Shown here piece after piece: positions 5,289 to 26,167 of a DNA stretch of 26,167 nt (its first letter is position 1; the number at the start of each line of letters is the position of its first letter). The translations under genes and the position numbers were made by a program. The notes beneath the pieces were generated by a model, which saw only the letters and a program-made list of their open reading frames with translations, had not been told where the DNA came from and ran no database searches. The DNA is from a virus, in IMG/VR virus record IMGVR_UViG_3300022693_003285, positions 1 through 26,167 of that record. One strand, written 5' to 3'.

Positions 5289-5602
5289 TGCTCTCCTTCA
5301 ATCAAATAAAAGAATGGTCCAATATGTCGCTGGCACAGCGGTACAATATGCTGTTAGGTGCAGTTGTCGTTGTGCTGGTGGCGGTAATAATATTTCTTAA
5401 AAATGATATTAACGATGTGCGTGCAGAGTCTCGCGATACTATTAGCAGTGTCATTACTCGATATACTGCTCGTGAGGCTGCTCTTGAAGCAAAACTGGAA
5501 GTCTGTAATCAAGAGCGTTTGGAGCGGCTTATCAAAAGCGAAAAAGAATATCGCGACCTTCTTTTTGAAGCGAAAAAACTCAAAGAAAAACTAGAAAAAT
5601 GA
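5288..5602 (+). CDS. Small membrane protein with coiled coil, holin or i-spanin candidate
   Basis: The 104-residue protein starts at an ATG overlapping the previous stop (TGATG). A single strong membrane helix (MLLGAVVVVLVAVIIFLK, about 21-38) is followed by a roughly 60-residue charged region with heptad-like spacing. It ends in a Lys/Glu-rich coiled coil (about 65-104) with one Cys at about 77. One N-terminal TM plus a periplasmic coiled coil is the topology of inner-membrane spanins (Rz-like); a class III holin or a structural membrane protein is also possible. It overlaps the next gene by 4 nt (ATGA) and lies two genes before the endolysin, which supports a lysis role. Confidence 0.5.
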   Translation: MLSFNQIKEWSNMSLAQRYNMLLGAVVVVLVAVIIFLKNDINDVRAESRDTISSVITRYTAREAALEAKLEVCNQERLERLIKSEKEYRDLLFEAKKLKEKLEK

Positions 5603-6550: not shown

Positions 6551-7167
6551 TGCAAAAAACATCAAAAATTTTATTACGCCTCTGCGTATTGGCTTTATTG
6601 CTCACAGCTGTTGTTTGTGCAACAGAAAGCTGCAGCACCAAACAAAAGGTTACGAATCGCACGAACAAAGAAGAGCGGATTGACATTGATCAGAATGTTT
6701 CAGAAAAAGAAACAAGAAGTGAAAAGTCTGATTGTACTGCGGTGAGCAAAAGCACCATCGATTGGAAAGCGATAAATGAAGCTCTAAATTTTAAACCGGT
6801 TGATCCTTCAAAACCGAGTACAGTGAAATTTACTCCTGAAGCTGATGGTGGCTTCACCTACGAGAGCAATAATGCAGACGTAAATACTTCAAAGTCTCAA
6901 GAAGAAAAGCGAGAAGTGAACTACGATTCTATTTATCGATCTGTAGAATCGAACCTCAGAAAAGAATATGAAGCCAAATTGATTGCTGCTTTAGAAGCAC
7001 AGGAAAAATCAAGAACTGCAGAAAGCGAATCCTCCAGATGGCCCACTTGGATCTATATTGTGATTGGGCTTGTGATTTTGGTTCTAGCCGTTGGTCTTAT
7101 TTTAGAATTCAGGCCGGAATCTTTAATAAGCCGCACCCTAAAAAAAGTTTTGAAAAGAAAAGAGTGA
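6550..7167 (+). CDS. Candidate unimolecular spanin (N-terminal lipoprotein-like signal plus C-terminal TM)
   Basis: The 205-residue product begins with a basic then hydrophobic signal (KILLRLCVLALLLTAVV) leading to a Cys-containing segment (ATESCSTK, Cys28) that could be a lipoprotein processing site. A long hydrophilic, Glu/Lys/Ser-rich middle (about 29-160) follows. A C-terminal membrane helix (WIYIVIGLVILVLAVGLIL, about 167-185) precedes a basic tail (RTLKKVLKRKE). Lipobox at one end and TM at the other is the defining layout of u-spanins, which bridge outer and inner membranes and disrupt the outer membrane at lysis. The position after the endolysin fits. The lipobox is not a textbook match, so a two-TM protein is the alternative. 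The TGA stop lies inside the first arm of the repeat array at 7162. Confidence 0.55.
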   Translation: MQKTSKILLRLCVLALLLTAVVCATESCSTKQKVTNRTNKEERIDIDQNVSEKETRSEKSDCTAVSKSTIDWKAINEALNFKPVDPSKPSTVKFTPEADGGFTYESNNADVNTSKSQEEKREVNYDSIYRSVESNLRKEYEAKLIAALEAQEKSRTAESESSRWPTWIYIVIGLVILVLAVGLILEFRPESLISRTLKKVLKRKE

Positions 7168-7398
7168 GACCTTTCAGAATTAAATATTAGCAGGATCTAA
7201 GTCTGAAAACGGGAAAGCCTCACTCAGCTCATAGTATAAGGAATAAGAGTGAGACCTTGATTGCAAGTTGAAGTCCCCCGACTGTCTTTCTGGATGTGCA
7301 GTCTCACTCTTAAGCTTGTATTTTTAAAAAAGAGTGAGACTTTAATGGTTCTGTAATTCCTCAAATCCAACAAACCTAGGGAAGAAGTGCCTCACTCT
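7162..7398 (+). repeat. Array of three inverted-repeat units at an exact 85-nt period; ncRNA candidate
   Basis: Left arms GAGTGAGAC start at 7162, 7247 and 7332, exactly 85 nt apart. Each is matched by a right arm: GCCTCACTC at 7217-7225, GTCTCACTC at 7301-7309, GCCTCACTC at 7389-7397. Unit 2 has a perfect 12-bp pair, TAAGAGTGAGAC (7244-7255) with GTCTCACTCTTA (7301-7312). Units 1 and 3 carry the same single A-C mismatch near the loop side. The roughly 45-48-nt interiors are unrelated to one another but contain their own stems: TTTCAGA (7172-7178) with TCTGAAA (7202-7208) in unit 1, AGTC-CCCC-GACT (7272-7283) in unit 2. The region has no convincing ORF. It begins in the stop codon of the preceding gene and is followed at 7451 by an intrinsic terminator, so the lysis operon transcript would carry all three hairpins as a 3' UTR. 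Function unknown. Confidence 0.75.
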
Positions 7399-7450
7399 GT
7401 TGCTAAGTTAGGTTTATTTATTTAAAAATCAAATAGTTATTGCTAACTCC

Positions 7451-7478
7451 AAAAAACCGTGTCACAACGGTTTTTTTT
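7451..7478 (+). terminator. Intrinsic terminator ending the lysis/repeat-array transcript
   Basis: AAAAAACCGT (7451-7460) pairs perfectly with ACGGTTTTTT (7467-7476) around the loop GTCACA, followed by more T. The TGTCACA motif of predicted late promoter 2 begins at the last base of the left stem and fills the loop. The 7399-7450 stretch before it is AT-rich, with one 6-bp dyad (AGTTAG 7406-7411 / CTAACT 7443-7448). Confidence 0.8.
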
Positions 7479-7495
7479 ATGCCTGTCCATCTTTG
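7460..7495 (+). promoter_or_regulatory. Predicted late promoter 2 (TGTCACA-N21-CATCTTTG)
   Basis: TGTCACA at 7460-7466 is followed at the same 28-nt start-to-start distance by CATCTTTG at 7488-7495, a 7/8 match to TAnnTTTG. The predicted start of transcription is close to 7500, the proposed first base of the protease gene, so the mRNA would be leaderless or nearly so. Confidence 0.45.
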
Positions 7496-7499
7496 GGCT

Positions 7500-8384
7500 A
7501 TGCAAAATACACTACTAGACGAGCTTGTAAAGGGTGAGTGGCTGATGAGCGCTCACAACCTGTTTTCCTATAGACAGCTGTGGGATAAAAACTTTCAGTT
7601 GGCACAGCCACAAATGAGCGCCCAAGATATTGCGAAGGAACGCCAGGCAAAAATGCTTTCCATTCTTGATGATAATATGAAAAGCATACGCCCTAACAGT
7701 ATTGAGGAGATACCGGAAGGAAGTGTAGCGGTGATCAGTATGATTGGCGTGATGCTTAGATACGGTACCTGGTATGCTTGGGGTGCAGATGAATTGATAC
7801 ATCAATTAGAATGGGCCAATAACATCAAAAACATCAAAGCGATCATCATCGTGATTGATGGTCCCGGAGGTAGTGTATCAGCCATTTCACCATTTATCGA
7901 TTTTGCTTCACGTAAGCAAAAGCCCATCGTAGCAATTATGGATAGTTCCCTCAGCTTGCACCGATGGATTCCTGATGCGATCGCAGACTATCAAATTGCC
8001 GGCAATACCATAAGCGCTCGCTTTGGTAGCATTGGTGTCGTTTCTTCCTGGTTAGATGTACGACAGTACTGGGAGAATCTGGGCATTTTTGAAAAAGAAG
8101 TCTATCCGGATGAAAGTTCGCACAAGAACGAGATCTGGAGACAGCTCAAGGAAGACGAAGAAAAAGGAATGCAAATGATGCGCGAGCAGCTGAAGCCTAT
8201 CGCAATTCAATTTCAAAACGCAGTTAGAGCTGCACACCCCAATCTAATTGAAGAAGAAGGCGTATTGACCGGTCGAACCTTTTCGGCCGAAGATGCGCTG
8301 CGTGTCAATATGATCGATGCGATCGGGAATATGAGCGATGCCTTCAATCAAGCGGTCATACTCGCAGAAACAAGTAATCTATAA
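7500..8384 (+). CDS. S49-family (SppA-like) prohead protease
   Basis: Numbered from ATG 7500 (MQNTLLDELVKGEWLMSAHN) the protein has 294 residues. The open frame extends upstream through the terminator to a TTG at 7440, and an ATG at 7479 is also in frame. Starts inside or before the terminator are unlikely, so 7500 is preferred and 7479 is the alternative. The ClpP/crotonase-like fold is visible: IDGPGGSVSAISPFIDFA (about 119-136), then KPIVAIMDSSLSLHRWI, in which Ser152 takes the place of the SppA nucleophile. Next come ISARFGSIGVVSSWLD (about 171-186) and a C-terminal GRTFSAEDALRVNMIDAIG typical of S49 enzymes. It sits directly before the capsid gene, as expected for a head-maturation protease that removes the scaffold domain. 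The usual SGG around the nucleophile is SLH here. Confidence 0.8.
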   Translation: MQNTLLDELVKGEWLMSAHNLFSYRQLWDKNFQLAQPQMSAQDIAKERQAKMLSILDDNMKSIRPNSIEEIPEGSVAVISMIGVMLRYGTWYAWGADELIHQLEWANNIKNIKAIIIVIDGPGGSVSAISPFIDFASRKQKPIVAIMDSSLSLHRWIPDAIADYQIAGNTISARFGSIGVVSSWLDVRQYWENLGIFEKEVYPDESSHKNEIWRQLKEDEEKGMQMMREQLKPIAIQFQNAVRAAHPNLIEEEGVLTGRTFSAEDALRVNMIDAIGNMSDAFNQAVILAETSNL

Positions 8385-8404
8385 ACCCTTAATTATAATT
8401 GACA

Positions 8405-10594
8405 ATGAAGAAAATTAAAGCAACAATTGGCTTTTTGATGGCCTTCTTTTCGATCAGCAAAATTCCGATTGCTGAAGGAAAGACAAACTTTTCTGATGAG
8501 CAGCTCTCACAGCTCGCGGAAAAAGTAGGAGCTAAAACCAAGGATCAAATCGTAAAAGCCTTGGATAAGCACGCTTCAGAAATTGAAGCTTCACAAAAGG
8601 ACAACAGCGAACTAGAAGCAGTTCGCGCTGAAGTACAAGCCTTACTTCAGGAAAGTGGACTCACAGAAGAAGAAGCTTCACAGCTTATCGACAACGAAGA
8701 CGGTGATGACGATGATGGTGATGGAGATCCGGGAACTGATGCTTCACAGAAGTCTATCGTAGAGAATCTACAAGCGATTAAGAAAGGCCTAGAAAAACGC
8801 GATCGCATTATCGAAAAATTAATGATGGAACCTGAGCCCGATGATCCGGTAGCAAAGGGGACTGTAACACCTAAGGATACTTTGAAACATTCTAACACAC
8901 ACTTTATGGGTTCAGGGCGTAACCTGGATGCATTTGAAGGTCGTAACTGGAACCAAAGAGCAGCAGGCTTATCCTCTAAGCCTACAGATTGGGCTGCTTC
9001 CGGGAATATTGAAAAACTGAAGACAGATATTGAAGATAACTGGACAGAAGTTAACGATCGAATTAAGTCACTTCATCGTGATTATTTACGATTACCATCT
9101 TATTTCCGTCTACGATCCAATGTAGAAGACCGTATTGCTGATGGTAACATTTCTGTAGCTGAAATCACTCAAGCACGTAAACTGCCTTGGTTACCCAAAA
9201 ATAAGTACTCAATTGCTCCTGAAGAAGGAAAAGTATTCCCGGTAAACATTGATATTGAATTGTTAGGCTATGAGCTTCAACGTATCGAAACAAGCTGGTT
9301 AAACGGTTGGAATAAAGAAGGATCTTCTCCTTACAAAATGGGATTTGTAGAGGTGTTGCTAATGGAATGGGATAAAAAAGCCCGTCAGGAAGATCGTAAG
9401 GTTGCCATTAATGGAGTTTTTTCTAAAACTCCTGATGATGCAAAAGTACCAGGCGCAGCAATCAACCGTGGGGATGGTTTAATGATTCAATTATGGAGAG
9501 CGTATTTTGAAGAGAAAAAATTCAAAACAAAATATGTTGGGTCTCCTACCAAGGCAAATATTGTTGACCATGTTACCGAAGTAATTGAAGCAAACTTACC
9601 TGAGGAGATCCGTAATACTCCAGGCCTTGTGTATAACCTTCACCCGGATTGGCTTCGTGCTTACAAAACACGATATAAGCAAATACATGGGACTGAAACC
9701 GGTTGGAAAGCTGGAGAGGAAATGACTATTGAAAATTATCCGAACATTCGTTTTGAAATAATCTATGATTTACAAAACCCGGACTTTCAGTTCATCACTT
9801 TTGATGATAACGTAGAATTATTGGAGAATCTACCTAAAGAAAAATCTATTTATAGAATGGATACGCTTAAGAGAAACGTATTCATTTATGGAGATTATAA
9901 ATGGGGAGCTCGTTTTATTCATATCGGAACTAAAGTAAAAGAAGGTGATCCGGAAAGCTTTAAAGTGCAAACCGTATGGACTAACGGTCTTCCAATGTTC
10001 AAAAACAACTTCTTTGTAAATCTATACGACGACGCTACAGGTGAGATCAAATTACCCTATTCTAATATTAAAACATTGGCAGGATGGGAGACTGATATTA
10101 CCAAGATCACTGGAAACTTTGAAGGTCAAATTGTAAAAATTAAAGGAGATCTTCTTGCAACTGGTAAAGTAAAAAACAACACTACAACCTTGTTAACAGG
10201 AGATGCAGATTTTGATTTAGCAAGTGGCGGTACTCTAACACTACGTGTTCAAGCTGATGGTAAATTAAAGGAAATTTCACGTACTGCAGAGCCGGAAGTT
10301 CTTCCTGAAGAGAATGATGTGTTATTTGATGCGACAGCAATTGATGCCACAGAAGGAAGTGTATTCAGATTTACTGGAGCTGAAAGCGCAAGCTTAGCCG
10401 AGATCGAAAACGGATTTGATGGTCAGGAAATTATCATTTATGGTACTGATACGGTAGACGTAACCTTTACGGTTTCGAATATCGCTGGCAATGTAAGTGT
10501 AGCTTCAAATGCAGTTCTTGCTGCAGCAGGAGACTATATTAAACTTACTCGTATTGACGGAGTATTCACCGAAGTAGAACGCGCAATAGCGTAA
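8405..10594 (+). CDS. Major capsid protein with N-terminal scaffold and C-terminal beta repeats
   Basis: ATG 8405 is preferred over an in-frame TTG at 8399; the product is 729 residues. Residues 28-145 form a charged coiled-coil scaffold-like region (NFSDEQLSQLAEKVGAK at its start) with a Gly/Asp linker (DGDDDDGDGDPGTD, about 99-112). The central part (about 170-560) is the likely shell-forming domain, with sequence such as LPWLPKNKYSIAPEEGKVFP and TPGLVYNLHPDWLRAYKTR. Residues 570-729 contain two related beta modules, starting NFEGQIVKIKGD and GFDGQEIIIYG and ending DGKLKEISR and DGVFTEVER. The neighbouring S49 protease probably cleaves the scaffold off during maturation. This is far longer than a bare HK97-type capsid protein because of the two additions. 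Identification rests on context, size and architecture; the shell fold cannot be proved by eye. Confidence 0.7.
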   Translation: MKKIKATIGFLMAFFSISKIPIAEGKTNFSDEQLSQLAEKVGAKTKDQIVKALDKHASEIEASQKDNSELEAVRAEVQALLQESGLTEEEASQLIDNEDGDDDDGDGDPGTDASQKSIVENLQAIKKGLEKRDRIIEKLMMEPEPDDPVAKGTVTPKDTLKHSNTHFMGSGRNLDAFEGRNWNQRAAGLSSKPTDWAASGNIEKLKTDIEDNWTEVNDRIKSLHRDYLRLPSYFRLRSNVEDRIADGNISVAEITQARKLPWLPKNKYSIAPEEGKVFPVNIDIELLGYELQRIETSWLNGWNKEGSSPYKMGFVEVLLMEWDKKARQEDRKVAINGVFSKTPDDAKVPGAAINRGDGLMIQLWRAYFEEKKFKTKYVGSPTKANIVDHVTEVIEANLPEEIRNTPGLVYNLHPDWLRAYKTRYKQIHGTETGWKAGEEMTIENYPNIRFEIIYDLQNPDFQFITFDDNVELLENLPKEKSIYRMDTLKRNVFIYGDYKWGARFIHIGTKVKEGDPESFKVQTVWTNGLPMFKNNFFVNLYDDATGEIKLPYSNIKTLAGWETDITKITGNFEGQIVKIKGDLLATGKVKNNTTTLLTGDADFDLASGGTLTLRVQADGKLKEISRTAEPEVLPEENDVLFDATAIDATEGSVFRFTGAESASLAEIENGFDGQEIIIYGTDTVDVTFTVSNIAGNVSVASNAVLAAAGDYIKLTRIDGVFTEVERAIA

Positions 10595-10603
10595 TAACCT
10601 TAT

Positions 10604-10632
10604 AGGTAGCCTGCAACCGTAGGCTACCTTTT
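10604..10632 (+). terminator. Partial intrinsic terminator after the capsid gene
   Basis: AGGTAGCCT (10604-10612) pairs with AGGCTACCT (10621-10629) around an 8-nt loop, followed by only four T. The next gene starts 14 nt later and has no promoter of its own that I can see. This suggests partial termination that sets capsid above downstream expression. Confidence 0.65.
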
Positions 10633-10645
10633 AAAAATTAAAATT

Positions 10646-11473
10646 ATGAGTGGATTAATGTTTAGCTTAAAAAAGCCTGTAAAAAGTAATGCCGGTGCGG
10701 TAACTGCGAAGAAAGCAGATATCGTTTTGGTAGATACTACAGATATTTTAACGCTGCCCTCCAGAGATAGTAAAGGCGTGAGAATGATAGGAAATATTGT
10801 TCTGAAGCCTGGAGCAAATATGATTGAGTTGTACTTGACTCCAAGTACTCAAACTCCATCTTATGAAAGTGAAGGAGAAGAAGACAGCGAGTCTTTTATT
10901 CATCAAATTGAAGGGATGCACCCGGGGAATCAGCTGGAGGCAAAAGAATTTTTTCAAAACAACATCGGTCGTGGATTTATTGCGATCTGGAGCGGTTGCA
11001 ACAACGCTACAGGAAAAGAATTGTATGGTTCGCCATGTGCTCCTTTAAAGATGCAAGGATCCTTTACTGCAGATAACGAGCGTACCGGTTTTACCTTCAC
11101 GTTTGCAAGTGTGCAGCGCACAAGCTATGTGCCGGCTACCTATGAAGGAGCTTTAACTCTAGCGGCACCTTATGAGCCTGCTGACTTTGATTTAAATATC
11201 ACAGCAGCAAATGGTGCATTTTACAAATTACCAACTTCAGCAGCTGCAGATGCGATCGACATTGCAACTACAGACCTGGAGCACGGTGATATTGTTACGC
11301 TAATTGGTGGCGGTGGCGCTAGTCCGGCTACCTTGAGCAACGGTGCTGGAACTGCAGGAACCGTTCAGCTCGTGGGTGGTGTAGATTGGGTTGCGCTTAG
11401 CGATGCGACGATCGATTTACAGGTATTTGACGATGGTACCACACTCTTTTTTAGAGAGGTGGCCCGAAGATAA
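10646..11473 (+). CDS. Tail-tube-like structural protein with a C-terminal beta module
   Basis: The 275-residue protein has two parts. Residues 1-170 follow a pattern seen in Bacteroidota phage major tail proteins: GNIVLKPGANMIELYLTPST, an EGMHPGNQLEAKEFF segment, IWSGCNNATGKELYGSPCAP, then a strand-rich FTFTFASVQRTSYVP. Residues about 175-275 form a Gly-rich beta module that repeats the theme of the capsid C-terminal modules (HGDIVTLIGGGG ... DLQVFDDGTTLFFREVARR). The product may be the major tail tube subunit, or a head decoration protein given its place right after the capsid gene. It has no signal or membrane segment. It ends before a strong terminator, so protease, capsid and this gene form one unit. 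Confidence 0.5.
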   Translation: MSGLMFSLKKPVKSNAGAVTAKKADIVLVDTTDILTLPSRDSKGVRMIGNIVLKPGANMIELYLTPSTQTPSYESEGEEDSESFIHQIEGMHPGNQLEAKEFFQNNIGRGFIAIWSGCNNATGKELYGSPCAPLKMQGSFTADNERTGFTFTFASVQRTSYVPATYEGALTLAAPYEPADFDLNITAANGAFYKLPTSAAADAIDIATTDLEHGDIVTLIGGGGASPATLSNGAGTAGTVQLVGGVDWVALSDATIDLQVFDDGTTLFFREVARR

Positions 11474-24064: not shown

Positions 24065-24652
24065 ATGGAAACTACAATCTTTACAAAAGTAATCGACGCT
24101 CAAACTCTTTTTGTTTTTGAATTTGAAGGAAATATTAAATCACCATCTGAACCATTTGCATCTCCTTTTAGAAAAGGAATCTTAACAAAGAATGGTTTTG
24201 AAGAAAAGCGAATGGAATTTCCCGCAGGGGCTTACACAAGAATAGAAAGCCTTGATTTTGAATCAGCGATGCAGTTGAGTCTTGAAAATACAGCGCGAGT
24301 AAATAAAATGCATCATGAAAAATATATGACAGAGGAGGCCGAAAGACGTGAAAAAGAGAATGCTGCATTTCAAAGAAAAATGAATAGTTTAATTTCTTAT
24401 GGAAAAGGCTGGTATGAAGTAGAAGTTCCTGCTCTCGTAATGAAAGTTCGTGGAAATGACGGTTGGATTGATCAATCAGTAAGAGTTCTTGCAGATTCAG
24501 GGCTTGATGCATACAACCAAGCTGTGGCTTTTATCGAAAATCCGGAGAACTTTCAAAAAAACGTAATGGCAGTACAGCATGTAGAATCTATCACAGCTGC
24601 CAGCATTGAATATATAGGAGTGCTAACTGACGAGTATCTTTTAGAATCTTAA
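24065..24652 (+). CDS. Hypothetical protein, first gene of the XRE operon (195 aa)
   Basis: ATG 24065 follows a well-formed promoter and operator. The 195-residue protein has an N-terminal beta part (FTKVIDAQTLFVFEFEGNI), then a long charged helix (about 75-105, TARVNKMHHEKYMTEEAERR onward) that is probably a coiled coil. A C-terminal mixed domain follows (GKGWYEVEVPALVMKVRGND). There is no signal, membrane segment or catalytic signature. It is AT-rich compared with the tail genes on its left. The gene is followed 2 nt later by an XRE regulator, so it is probably repressed in the prophage or early state. Possible roles are superinfection exclusion or host takeover; this is speculation from context. 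Confidence 0.6.
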   Translation: METTIFTKVIDAQTLFVFEFEGNIKSPSEPFASPFRKGILTKNGFEEKRMEFPAGAYTRIESLDFESAMQLSLENTARVNKMHHEKYMTEEAERREKENAAFQRKMNSLISYGKGWYEVEVPALVMKVRGNDGWIDQSVRVLADSGLDAYNQAVAFIENPENFQKNVMAVQHVESITAASIEYIGVLTDEYLLES

Positions 24653-24654
24653 TA

Positions 24655-24852
24655 ATGAAAAATAACCCAATCAAAAAGCTCCGCCAGATGGCGGGGCTTT
24701 CTCAATTAGAAATGGCAAAAATCGTAGGTGAGCAGCGCCCGCATATTTCGCGCTATGAAACCGGAAAAGCAGATATTTCTCTTTCTAAATTTTTAACCTG
24801 GTGCGATAAGCTGGATATCACTGATTTTAATACACTTTTTAACGATGAATAA
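24655..24852 (+). CDS. XRE-family HTH transcriptional regulator
   Basis: The 65-residue protein is a minimal Cro/C1-type DNA-binding domain: IKKLRQMAGLSQLEMAKIVG (6-25), the turn, then QRPHISRYETGKADISLSKF (27-46) with the typical SRYE-G pattern of the recognition helix. There is no second domain. It starts 2 nt after the previous stop. It is the likely autoregulator of this operon through the GTACC/GGTAC dyad at 23983-24002. Codons 7-15 are embedded in a terminator-like hairpin. It overlaps the next gene by 8 nt. Confidence 0.9.
   Translation: MKNNPIKKLRQMAGLSQLEMAKIVGEQRPHISRYETGKADISLSKFLTWCDKLDITDFNTLFNDE
24675..24700 (+). terminator. Terminator-like hairpin inside the start of the XRE gene
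   Basis: AAAGCTCCGCC (24675-24685) pairs with GGCGGGGCTTT (24690-24700) around AGAT: 11 bp with one G-U pair, preceded by A residues and followed by TTTCTC. It is shaped like an intrinsic terminator but encodes residues about 7-16 of the repressor. It could attenuate transcription or translation of the regulator. Confidence 0.55.
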
Positions 24853-25201
24853 ACTAACCAATCCCGATTTCCTTTTTTGTGAACTACCGGTAAAAGATGG
24901 CAGCATTCAGGATGAGCGTGCATTCATCTATTGCACAAACTATATTTCATTAATAGAGGTCTGGCCACTTGAGTTAGGCCCGGCAGCCTGGCCAAAAGAG
25001 CAGTTTCAAAAAAACTACAAGTATTTCGATGAAGACTTTCTTTTGGTCTTCACTCAAAACAATATTGACCTGGTCAATGAGCAGATTAGTGATGTTGCAG
25101 TTTTGCAGGGCAAAGCCAGTCGCAAGACTCAAGAACAGTTAATGGATGCAGCGTGGGAATTCTACCGCAACTATTTAGAATGGGTAGATTCTCAAATATA
25201 A
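24845..25201 (+). CDS. Hypothetical protein, third gene of the XRE operon (118 aa)
   Basis: Overlaps the XRE gene by 8 nt. The 118-residue acidic protein starts MNKLTNPDFLFCELPVKDGS, with strands in the first half (RAFIYCTNYISLIEVWPLEL) and Trp-rich helices in the second (DAAWEFYRNYLEWVDSQI). No family recognised. Small XRE proteins followed by an unknown gene are frequent in toxin-antitoxin and defence or immunity modules, so a partner relationship is possible. A tail-assembly chaperone is the alternative, given the tape measure gene 400 nt downstream. Confidence 0.55.
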   Translation: MNKLTNPDFLFCELPVKDGSIQDERAFIYCTNYISLIEVWPLELGPAAWPKEQFQKNYKYFDEDFLLVFTQNNIDLVNEQISDVAVLQGKASRKTQEQLMDAAWEFYRNYLEWVDSQI

Positions 25202-25215
25202 TCCCCTTTTTTCCC

Positions 25216-25361
25216 TACATTTACCACGTCCAATAAGTTTTAAAATTATAGCGTAGGCTTGATTTGGTAACCAAATCCCGCCTTCTAGAGGTTCATCGGT
25301 AATCAATCCGGTGGTACTTCCCTACGCTGTATGGACTTATTGGACGACCCGAAGGCGGGTC
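25216..25361 (+). ncRNA. Highly structured RNA candidate with potential pseudoknot
   Basis: TACATTTA (25216-25223) is a 7/8 match to TAnnTTTG and places the RNA start at about 25228, at the first bases of a perfect 12-bp helix P1: CGTCCAATAAGT (25227-25238) with ACTTATTGGACG (25335-25346). Inside it, P2 is ATAGCGTAGG (25248-25257) with CCTACGCTGT (25321-25330), 10 bp with one G-U. P3 is GATTTGG-TAA-CCAAATC (25261-25277). P5 is CATCGG (25294-25299) with CCGGTG (25308-25313). CCCGCCTTC (25277-25285) is also exactly complementary to GAAGGCGGG (25351-25359), which lies outside P1, giving a possible 9-bp pseudoknot. The same 3' bases can instead form a local hairpin GACCCG-AAGG-CGGGTC (25346-25361). 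No ORF fits the region, and the next ATG is at 25371. It may be a free ncRNA or a cis-regulatory leader. No known class recognised. Confidence 0.7.
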
Positions 25362-25370
25362 TACCAAACT

Positions 25371-25550
25371 ATGGCAAAGCATTATCGAAATTCAGAAGAT
25401 CTTACTTCTATCGAAGGCGAATTTGTAGAAGCCGGTTCCCTTTGGTCTCTCGAAGATCAAATTCTGGTCCTGGTTGATGAGGATCGCTATGCTACTTATC
25501 CTTTTGTCAGTTCGAGCGCAGTCGAGAACGCTCTATTCACCGAAGCTTAG
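25371..25550 (+). CDS. Small acidic hypothetical protein downstream of the structured RNA (59 aa)
   Basis: ATG 25371 (MAKHYRNSEDLTSIEGEFVE) is chosen over the in-frame GTG 25311, which would start inside the structured RNA. The 59-residue protein is acidic with a core SLWSLEDQILVLVDEDRYAT and ends ENALFTEA. It starts only 9 nt after the last hairpin of the RNA element, so folding could control its translation. It ends 4 nt before late promoter 5. Unrecognised. Confidence 0.5.
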   Translation: MAKHYRNSEDLTSIEGEFVEAGSLWSLEDQILVLVDEDRYATYPFVSSSAVENALFTEA

Positions 25551-25554
25551 CACC

Positions 25555-25590
25555 TGTCACAACTTAAGCCAAGCCCTATCCTTAGTATTA
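25555..25590 (+). promoter_or_regulatory. Predicted late promoter 5 (TGTCACA-N21-TAGTATTA)
   Basis: TGTCACA at 25555-25561 is followed at exactly 28 nt start to start by TAGTATTA at 25583-25590. The box differs from that of promoter 4 only in its last base. Predicted start near 25595, about 18 nt before the tape measure ATG. A CCCTTTC/GAAAGGG dyad (25591-25597 / 25605-25611) lies between box and start codon. Confidence 0.65.
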
Positions 25591-25612: not shown

Positions 25613-26167
25613 ATGGCAAAACGTATCGTTGATGAAGAAATGCGCTTTAGCATCGTTGTTAATGGCAACGAAGCGCAAAAGGAATTACTCGATCTTGAGA
25701 AAGCCAATCGTAAGCTTCTCGATACCAATCGCAAGAACAGGACTGAGCAGCGCAAACTGGAGCGTCAGGGTAAGCAAAATACTGCCCGGTATAAAGAGCT
25801 CTCTGCAGAGATAGCTAGAAACACTACAGAGCTCCAGAAGAATTACACACGTATGAATAAGCTGGAGGAGGAGATCGGTGTTACCGGTCTTTCTGTTACA
25901 CAGCTTACACGAAAGTTGAAAGCGCTGCGTGTTGCCTGGAACAATTCTACTCCCGGTACCGAACAATACAAAATGTATGAGAAGCAGATAGCAGCTGTCA
26001 ATCAGCAGCTATCCACATTGCGTATGCGTTCTCGAGGTGCAAAAAAGGGTCTTTCTTCTCTTGCAGATGGTTTCAACAAATATTCCGCGCTCGCAGTTTC
26101 GTTTATTGCGGTTCTAACAGGCGTCGCATTCCAACTGCAGCAGCTTATAGATTTCAACGGGAAACTT
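25613..26167 (+). CDS. Tape measure protein (3' truncated by window end)
   Basis: ATG 25613 opens a frame that stays open to the last base, 185 codons so far. The N-terminal 150 residues are almost entirely charged helix (ELLDLEKANRKLLDTNRKNR; TARYKELSAEIARNTTELQK; NKLEEEIGVTGLSVTQLTRK). A hydrophobic segment follows (YSALAVSFIAVLTGVAF, about 155-171). A long coiled coil leading to a membrane-active helix, late in the tail gene order, is typical of tape measure proteins, which set tail length and help deliver DNA. A predicted late promoter lies immediately upstream. The full length cannot be seen. Confidence 0.75.
   Translation, partial: MAKRIVDEEMRFSIVVNGNEAQKELLDLEKANRKLLDTNRKNRTEQRKLERQGKQNTARYKELSAEIARNTTELQKNYTRMNKLEEEIGVTGLSVTQLTRKLKALRVAWNNSTPGTEQYKMYEKQIAAVNQQLSTLRMRSRGAKKGLSSLADGFNKYSALAVSFIAVLTGVAFQLQQLIDFNGKL

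Follow-up and report, generated by a model that had tools for sequence, protein, structure and literature searches.

C4 antisense RNA, studied in phages P1 and P7, is a classic of phage immunity, and in these phages a copy of the target also precedes the RNA. Plasmid antisense incompatibility RNAs, in which small matched changes in antisense and target give new specificities, offer a general analogy only to the Bacteroidota units described here, which are without replication control. RNase P releases the C4 RNA of P1/P7 from a longer transcript by cutting on the 5' side of the outer stem, and target binding is by loops a' and b', with small differences setting the specificity (PMC5320573); PMC2864571 lists c4-a1b1 as a motif name. 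The Bacteroidota units resemble P1/P7 C4 (RF01695) and c4-a1b1 in that the antisense lies in the leader of the targeted transcript, in the outer stem, and in a specificity segment that varies between phages (PMC5320573). P1/P7 C4 acts on an antirepressor operon, whereas the Bacteroidota units precede small uncharacterised genes beside the tape-measure gene. Among the papers searched, none reported such RNAs in Duneviridae.

The stretch of DNA analysed, hereafter the window, is the 26,167-nucleotide virus record IMGVR_UViG_3300022693_003285, which belongs to a phage of marine flavobacteria. A tape-measure gene, cut by the window end, lies at its right end (25613-26167; phrog_25337, E 2.6e-43) and was the anchor for finding relatives. 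It is preceded by a 59-aa gene (25371-25550; T-like family, YRN..GSLW..LVLVDEDQY), the first cistron after a structured RNA that sits just upstream of it, all on the plus strand. From sequence comparison, we read this RNA as a C4-type antisense RNA unit composed of a leader, a helix I domain, and an antisense strand, with a probability of about 0.7.

The element is headed by a -7-like box, TACATTTA (25216-25223), of the Bacteroidota type TAnnTTTG with the final G changed to A; this TTTA variant also occurs in L066, L067, and L070, and the consensus suggests a promoter. The leader copy of the target (X5', GTCCAATAAG...TAGCGTAGG, 25228-25257) provides the 5' strands of P1 (25228-25240) and P2 (25247-25257), and its TCCAAT begins exactly +13 from the box start, the same spacing as in about 24 relatives, where the box is 13 bases ahead of the leader motif. 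There follow the P3 hairpin GATTTGGTAACCAAATC (25261-25277), the helix I 5' strand CCCGCCTTC (25277-25285), the P4 hairpin with TCGGTAATCAATCCGG (25288-25320), which closes over TAATCAAT, and the antisense strand anti-X, CCTACGCTGTATGGACTTATTGGAC (25321-25345), which comprises the 3' strands of P2 and P1 and takes the place of anti-X in relatives. The helix I 3' strand GAAGGCGGG (25351-25359) is the exact 9-bp complement of the 5' strand and can alternatively join a local hairpin, GACCCG/CGGGTC (25346-25361). P1 is a perfect 12-bp stem (CGTCCAATAAGT/ACTTATTGGACG), P2 has about 10-11 bp with one G-U, and P3 (GATTTGG/CCAAATC, 7 bp) shares one base, C25277, with helix I. TTTGGTA within P3 (25263-25269) is complementary to TACCAAA (25362-25368). 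An earlier note on this DNA had described four helices, including the perfect 12-bp and 7-bp stems, the 9-bp complement, the local 3' hairpin, and the TTTGGTA/TACCAAA pairing, and we found all of them. At the DNA level, GATTTGGTAACCAAATC is also a near-perfect palindrome, identical in three phages, and may be a protein-binding site.

The RNA is far more stable than expected from its composition, with a minimum free energy of -60.8 kcal/mol compared with -34.8 +/- 3.7 for dinucleotide shuffles (z -6.96, reached by none of 200 shuffles). P1 is improbable by chance, as a perfect 12-bp stem arose in 2 of 1,000 dinucleotide shuffles. Stems of 9 bp or more arose in 54 of 1,000, so the 9-bp link is by itself not rare by chance and needs other support. 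Two close homologues carry copies about 90% identical to the window RNA: L005 and L004, a prophage also present in Leeuwenhoekiella marinoflava DSM 3653 (L034). P1, P2, and P4, whose uncompensated disruption in homologues the earlier note had named as telling against the fold, are unbroken in both. All 51 pairs hold, and the 151 cells of these pairs in the three-phage alignment are all standard. Five pairs changed on both sides (one in P1, four in P2), and sliding the partner by 1-3 columns as a control gave zero two-sided changes. Helix I, P3, and nearly all of P4 are invariant across the three phages and show no covariation; the supports for helix I are its identity in these homologues and a partly compensated version in a more distant genome (L138, below). 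No DNA-level relative of the window was found in the phage collection.

Relatives of the locus were gathered through relatives of the tape-measure protein, relatives of the T-like 59-aa family, and named Duneviridae phages. In about 27 related Bacteroidota phages, the corresponding position ahead of the tape-measure gene holds one common layout, in the order TAnnTTTG box, copy at +13 of the second and third codons of the following gene, helix I enclosing a hairpin domain, antisense, and start codon. In most of the relatives gathered, such an RNA lies upstream of the T-like gene or of a G-like gene, about 100 aa long, that precedes it. Antisense matches of 8 nt or more to the element's own gene start occur in 24 of 27 elements, L138 among them, and at 1 of 194 other ORF starts drawn from these loci, with the limit that the elements are not all independent in descent. 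The own 7-mer is present in the antisense region of 22 of 24 elements (foreign 7-mers, 0 of 534) and the own codon 2-3 hexamer in the leader of 18 of 24 (foreign hexamers, 19 of 534). Across 17 distinct target cores, the letters of antisense, leader, and target vary together. Examples of matched triplets are GACAAAA / TTTTGTC / ATGACAAAAG in L073, GACTAAA / TTTAGTC / ATGACTAAAG in L075, and GTCAAAA / TTTTGAC / ATGTCAAAAG in L079, and the match between antisense and start extends over 18 bases in L059. Ranked by duplex energy, the own target comes first in only about half of the 24 elements, since 8-nt targets pair weakly, and exact matching is the cleaner test. A mechanical detector returned 26 loci, and in 24 of them the leader motif sits precisely at +13 relative to the box; the reversed sequences gave 1 match and the minus strand 5. 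Of 23 relatives tested, 19 have an intrinsic terminator between the unit and the tape-measure gene; these 19 units have their own promoter-like box and their own terminator, as expected of an accessory transcription unit.

The window copy is tied to this group through another Leeuwenhoekiella genome. A DNA search across that genus matched the window's P4 hairpin, the portion common to both, in genome G402 (L138; blastn E 2.5e-5). Past the hairpin, L138 has the antisense TGTTATTGGACA and the helix I strand ATGGCGGG (partner CCGGCCAT, with one G.G mismatch). This antisense matches the gene start ATGTCCAATAACA of a G-like protein perfectly over 12 bases, and TTATTGGAC in the window's anti-X is the core of the same 12-bp antisense. 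Applied to the window leader, the +13 rule predicts the target ATGTCCAAT(AAG), which is the target found in L138. On this ground, the window's 25321-25345 is the antisense strand and CCCGCCTTC/GAAGGCGGG is helix I, and P1+P2 are better read as the duplex that this antisense strand forms with the 5' leader of the RNA. The window leader (GTCCAATAAG...GCGTAGG) pairs with its own anti-X at -34.4 kcal/mol, and the duplex of the window's anti-X with the L138 start reaches only about -15 to -16 kcal/mol. Near the L138 element (L142, reverse complement 7000-10900), the 18 kb covered contained no relative of window or L004 proteins. Its neighbours include relatives of two genes, of 212 and 349 aa, which in L087 lie ahead of the RNA (L087:883-2746), and this may point to a mobile accessory cassette.

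Among Rfam families, the nearest is c4-2 (RF02944, clan CL00128). The syntenic element of Flavobacterium phage 1H (L075) matches it at 49.4 bits (E 8.9e-8, cut-off 41), and two further elements score below the cut-off (L077, 38.7 bits; L011, 35.5 bits). The window element shares with c4-2 the order helix I, hairpin, antisense strand, helix I, and the outer stem of the c4-2 model corresponds to what the earlier note had called a pseudoknot in the window. It differs in that neither P4 nor helix I resembles the c4-2 consensus in sequence, in having P3 as an additional hairpin, and in lacking the cis target. An Rfam scan, one of the checks proposed in the earlier note, left the window RNA without a match to any family, at the gathering threshold or at E up to 5, and a search with RF02944 in 50 relatives of L. 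marinoflava gave no match, nor did its controls, so that this search is uninformative. R1, a model built on the window element, did not detect the other relatives either, and the homology of the window copy therefore rests on L138, position, and architecture. C4-type features are nonetheless present: without its leader, the segment 25277-25361 folds at -33.3 kcal/mol into helix I and P4 and leaves anti-X largely open, as for a C4 outer stem, and a target copy that pairs with anti-X lies upstream of the domain with TCCAAT at +13. The start of the 59-aa gene has no antisense target in cis. The window RNA thus probably works like C4, but we do not file it as a c4-2 member because this copy fails on both the Rfam match and the cis target. 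As a C4-type RNA it is of a known kind, here in a form that Rfam does not match for the window copy.

Folding at full length yields the leader:anti-X duplex, with the local 3' hairpin in addition in the window class (the window, L004, and L005). Folding without the leader yields helix I and the inner hairpin, with the antisense strand largely open. The same pair of folds was found in the window, L004, L005, L131, L079, and L053; in L070 and L059, the exceptions, the leader-less fold prefers pairing of anti-X with the start over helix I. The earlier proposal of a structured RNA that begins at a promoter-like box and has two competing folds next to a start codon is thus supported, with the promoter a predicted one. 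Its pseudoknot stands as a pairing and not as a reading: the 9-bp helix is better understood as helix I of the antisense domain, and we favour alternation of helix I with P1/P2 over a true pseudoknot in which they coexist because the link from P1 to helix I is 5 bases.

From the computed folds, the conserved layout, and the target complementarity in relatives, we infer a course of transcription, processing, repression, and immunity. Transcription would start at about 25226-25229, and in the intact transcript anti-X would be held by the leader through P1+P2. If the leader were cut off, as by RNase P in P1/P7 C4, helix I would close the domain and expose anti-X, which could then block translation of an mRNA beginning ATGTCCAATAA. 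In most relatives, the blocked mRNA would be that of the next gene. For the window class, any action of the antisense would most likely be in trans, against a related phage or prophage in an immunity-like manner, and a weaker cis pairing of TTTGGTA with TACCAAA could operate alongside at the start of the 59-aa gene.

The target itself is what the window class lacks. At the start of the 59-aa gene there is no ATGTCCAAT, and the site chiefly targeted in relatives, at codons 2-3 of the following gene, is missing. The next-start target is likewise absent in all three phages of the class and in L053. Neither the window class nor L053 has an intrinsic terminator before the tape-measure gene, and the window class has no G-like gene, unlike most relatives. 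A search of the window and of 51 kb surrounding the L. marinoflava prophage gave no convincing trans target for the window antisense; the best match, an ATG near 5323, was rejected because it lies inside another gene. A pattern search for other carriers of the window specificity found none in 397 genomes, and three viral contigs that it returned were judged chance matches on inspection. The window RNA may have lost its cis target, may act in trans, or may use the weaker TTTGGTA/TACCAAA pairing.

The absence of an antisense target downstream fits a purely cis-acting two-state leader, in which access to the start of the 59-aa gene is switched by TTTGGTA of P3 and by the 9-bp pairing, and the C4-like layout is inherited and unused in trans. 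The three phages retain both TTTGGTA/TACCAAA and the local hairpin, but the pairing is invariant there, so that nothing shows selection on it, and a 7-nt match is weak. The functional pairing that is conserved in L138 and the other relatives is that of the antisense strand. We therefore regard a purely cis leader as unlikely, and of the cis switch at the 59-aa ATG put forward in the earlier note, there remains the 7-bp complementarity, with the relatives' main target missing. The lack of a G-like gene, target, and terminator before the tape-measure gene would suit a decaying remnant, an RNA left idle after the G-like target gene was lost in the window lineage. Decay would not give five two-sided changes in P1/P2 with none of the 51 pairs broken, and we hold a remnant to be distinctly improbable.

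A metabolite riboswitch, a ribozyme, or another unrelated structured RNA, readings that the earlier note had also entertained, could account for the ornate fold and for the T-loop-like CCGGTGCAAGTCCGG hairpins of some relatives, which we take to resemble elements of cobalamin riboswitches. These readings do not fit the window's lack of any Rfam match even at E 5, nor the relatives, which have no common aptamer core and conserve instead the complementarity to their own start codons; we consider them very improbable. A C4-type antisense unit, in our estimate, best joins the leader duplex, the helix I domain, and the matched targets of the relatives.

If so, C4 logic would operate in some thirty Bacteroidota phages, with 17 antisense-target cores changing together, and the window copy would indicate that a unit can persist past the loss of its cis target. 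Speculatively, and with more doubt than confidence, temperate phages of Bacteroidota might use diversified C4-like RNAs as immunity types, each of which would silence a small gene in same-type phages alone, the window phage having kept the RNA and dropped its own target gene so as to silence competitors of the same type and not itself. Immunity types set by RNA would be directly testable in laboratory flavobacteria. The rule of box, +13 copy, antisense, and start codon also provides a way to find such units without a sequence model.

Several observations concern the surroundings of the units. In the window, a 195-aa gene, an HTH_3 protein, and a phrog_18499 protein (24065-25201) lie between the phrog_25557 gene and the RNA, and in L004 the RNA directly follows the phrog_25557 gene, so that the three intervening genes appear to be insertions at an accessory site. 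We considered a role for the HTH gene upstream and dropped it, because L004 carries the RNA without it. By eye, proteins resembling the G-like family (motif like YLSS..A....R) flank the RNA on both sides in L007, L009, L013, L014, L017, and L018, and are possible paralogue pairs. Directly past the terminator, 20-110 bases before the tape-measure gene, most relatives (L059, L063, L066, L073-L080, L087, and L131) have CATGTCACA, CATGTTACA, or CATGTCTTAA, the window version being CTGTCACAACTTAAG (25553-25560); this is perhaps a late promoter or activator site ahead of the tape-measure gene. The +13 detector also picked up a unit in a more distant phage whose tape-measure protein is 29% identical (L021:3819-4010; leader TGTCTAACATTCAAACTGG, antisense CCAGTTTGGTGTTAGACA) and one in Flavobacterium phage laban6-1 (L133:829-1010) with a 16-bp match, and such RNAs may thus be wider spread.
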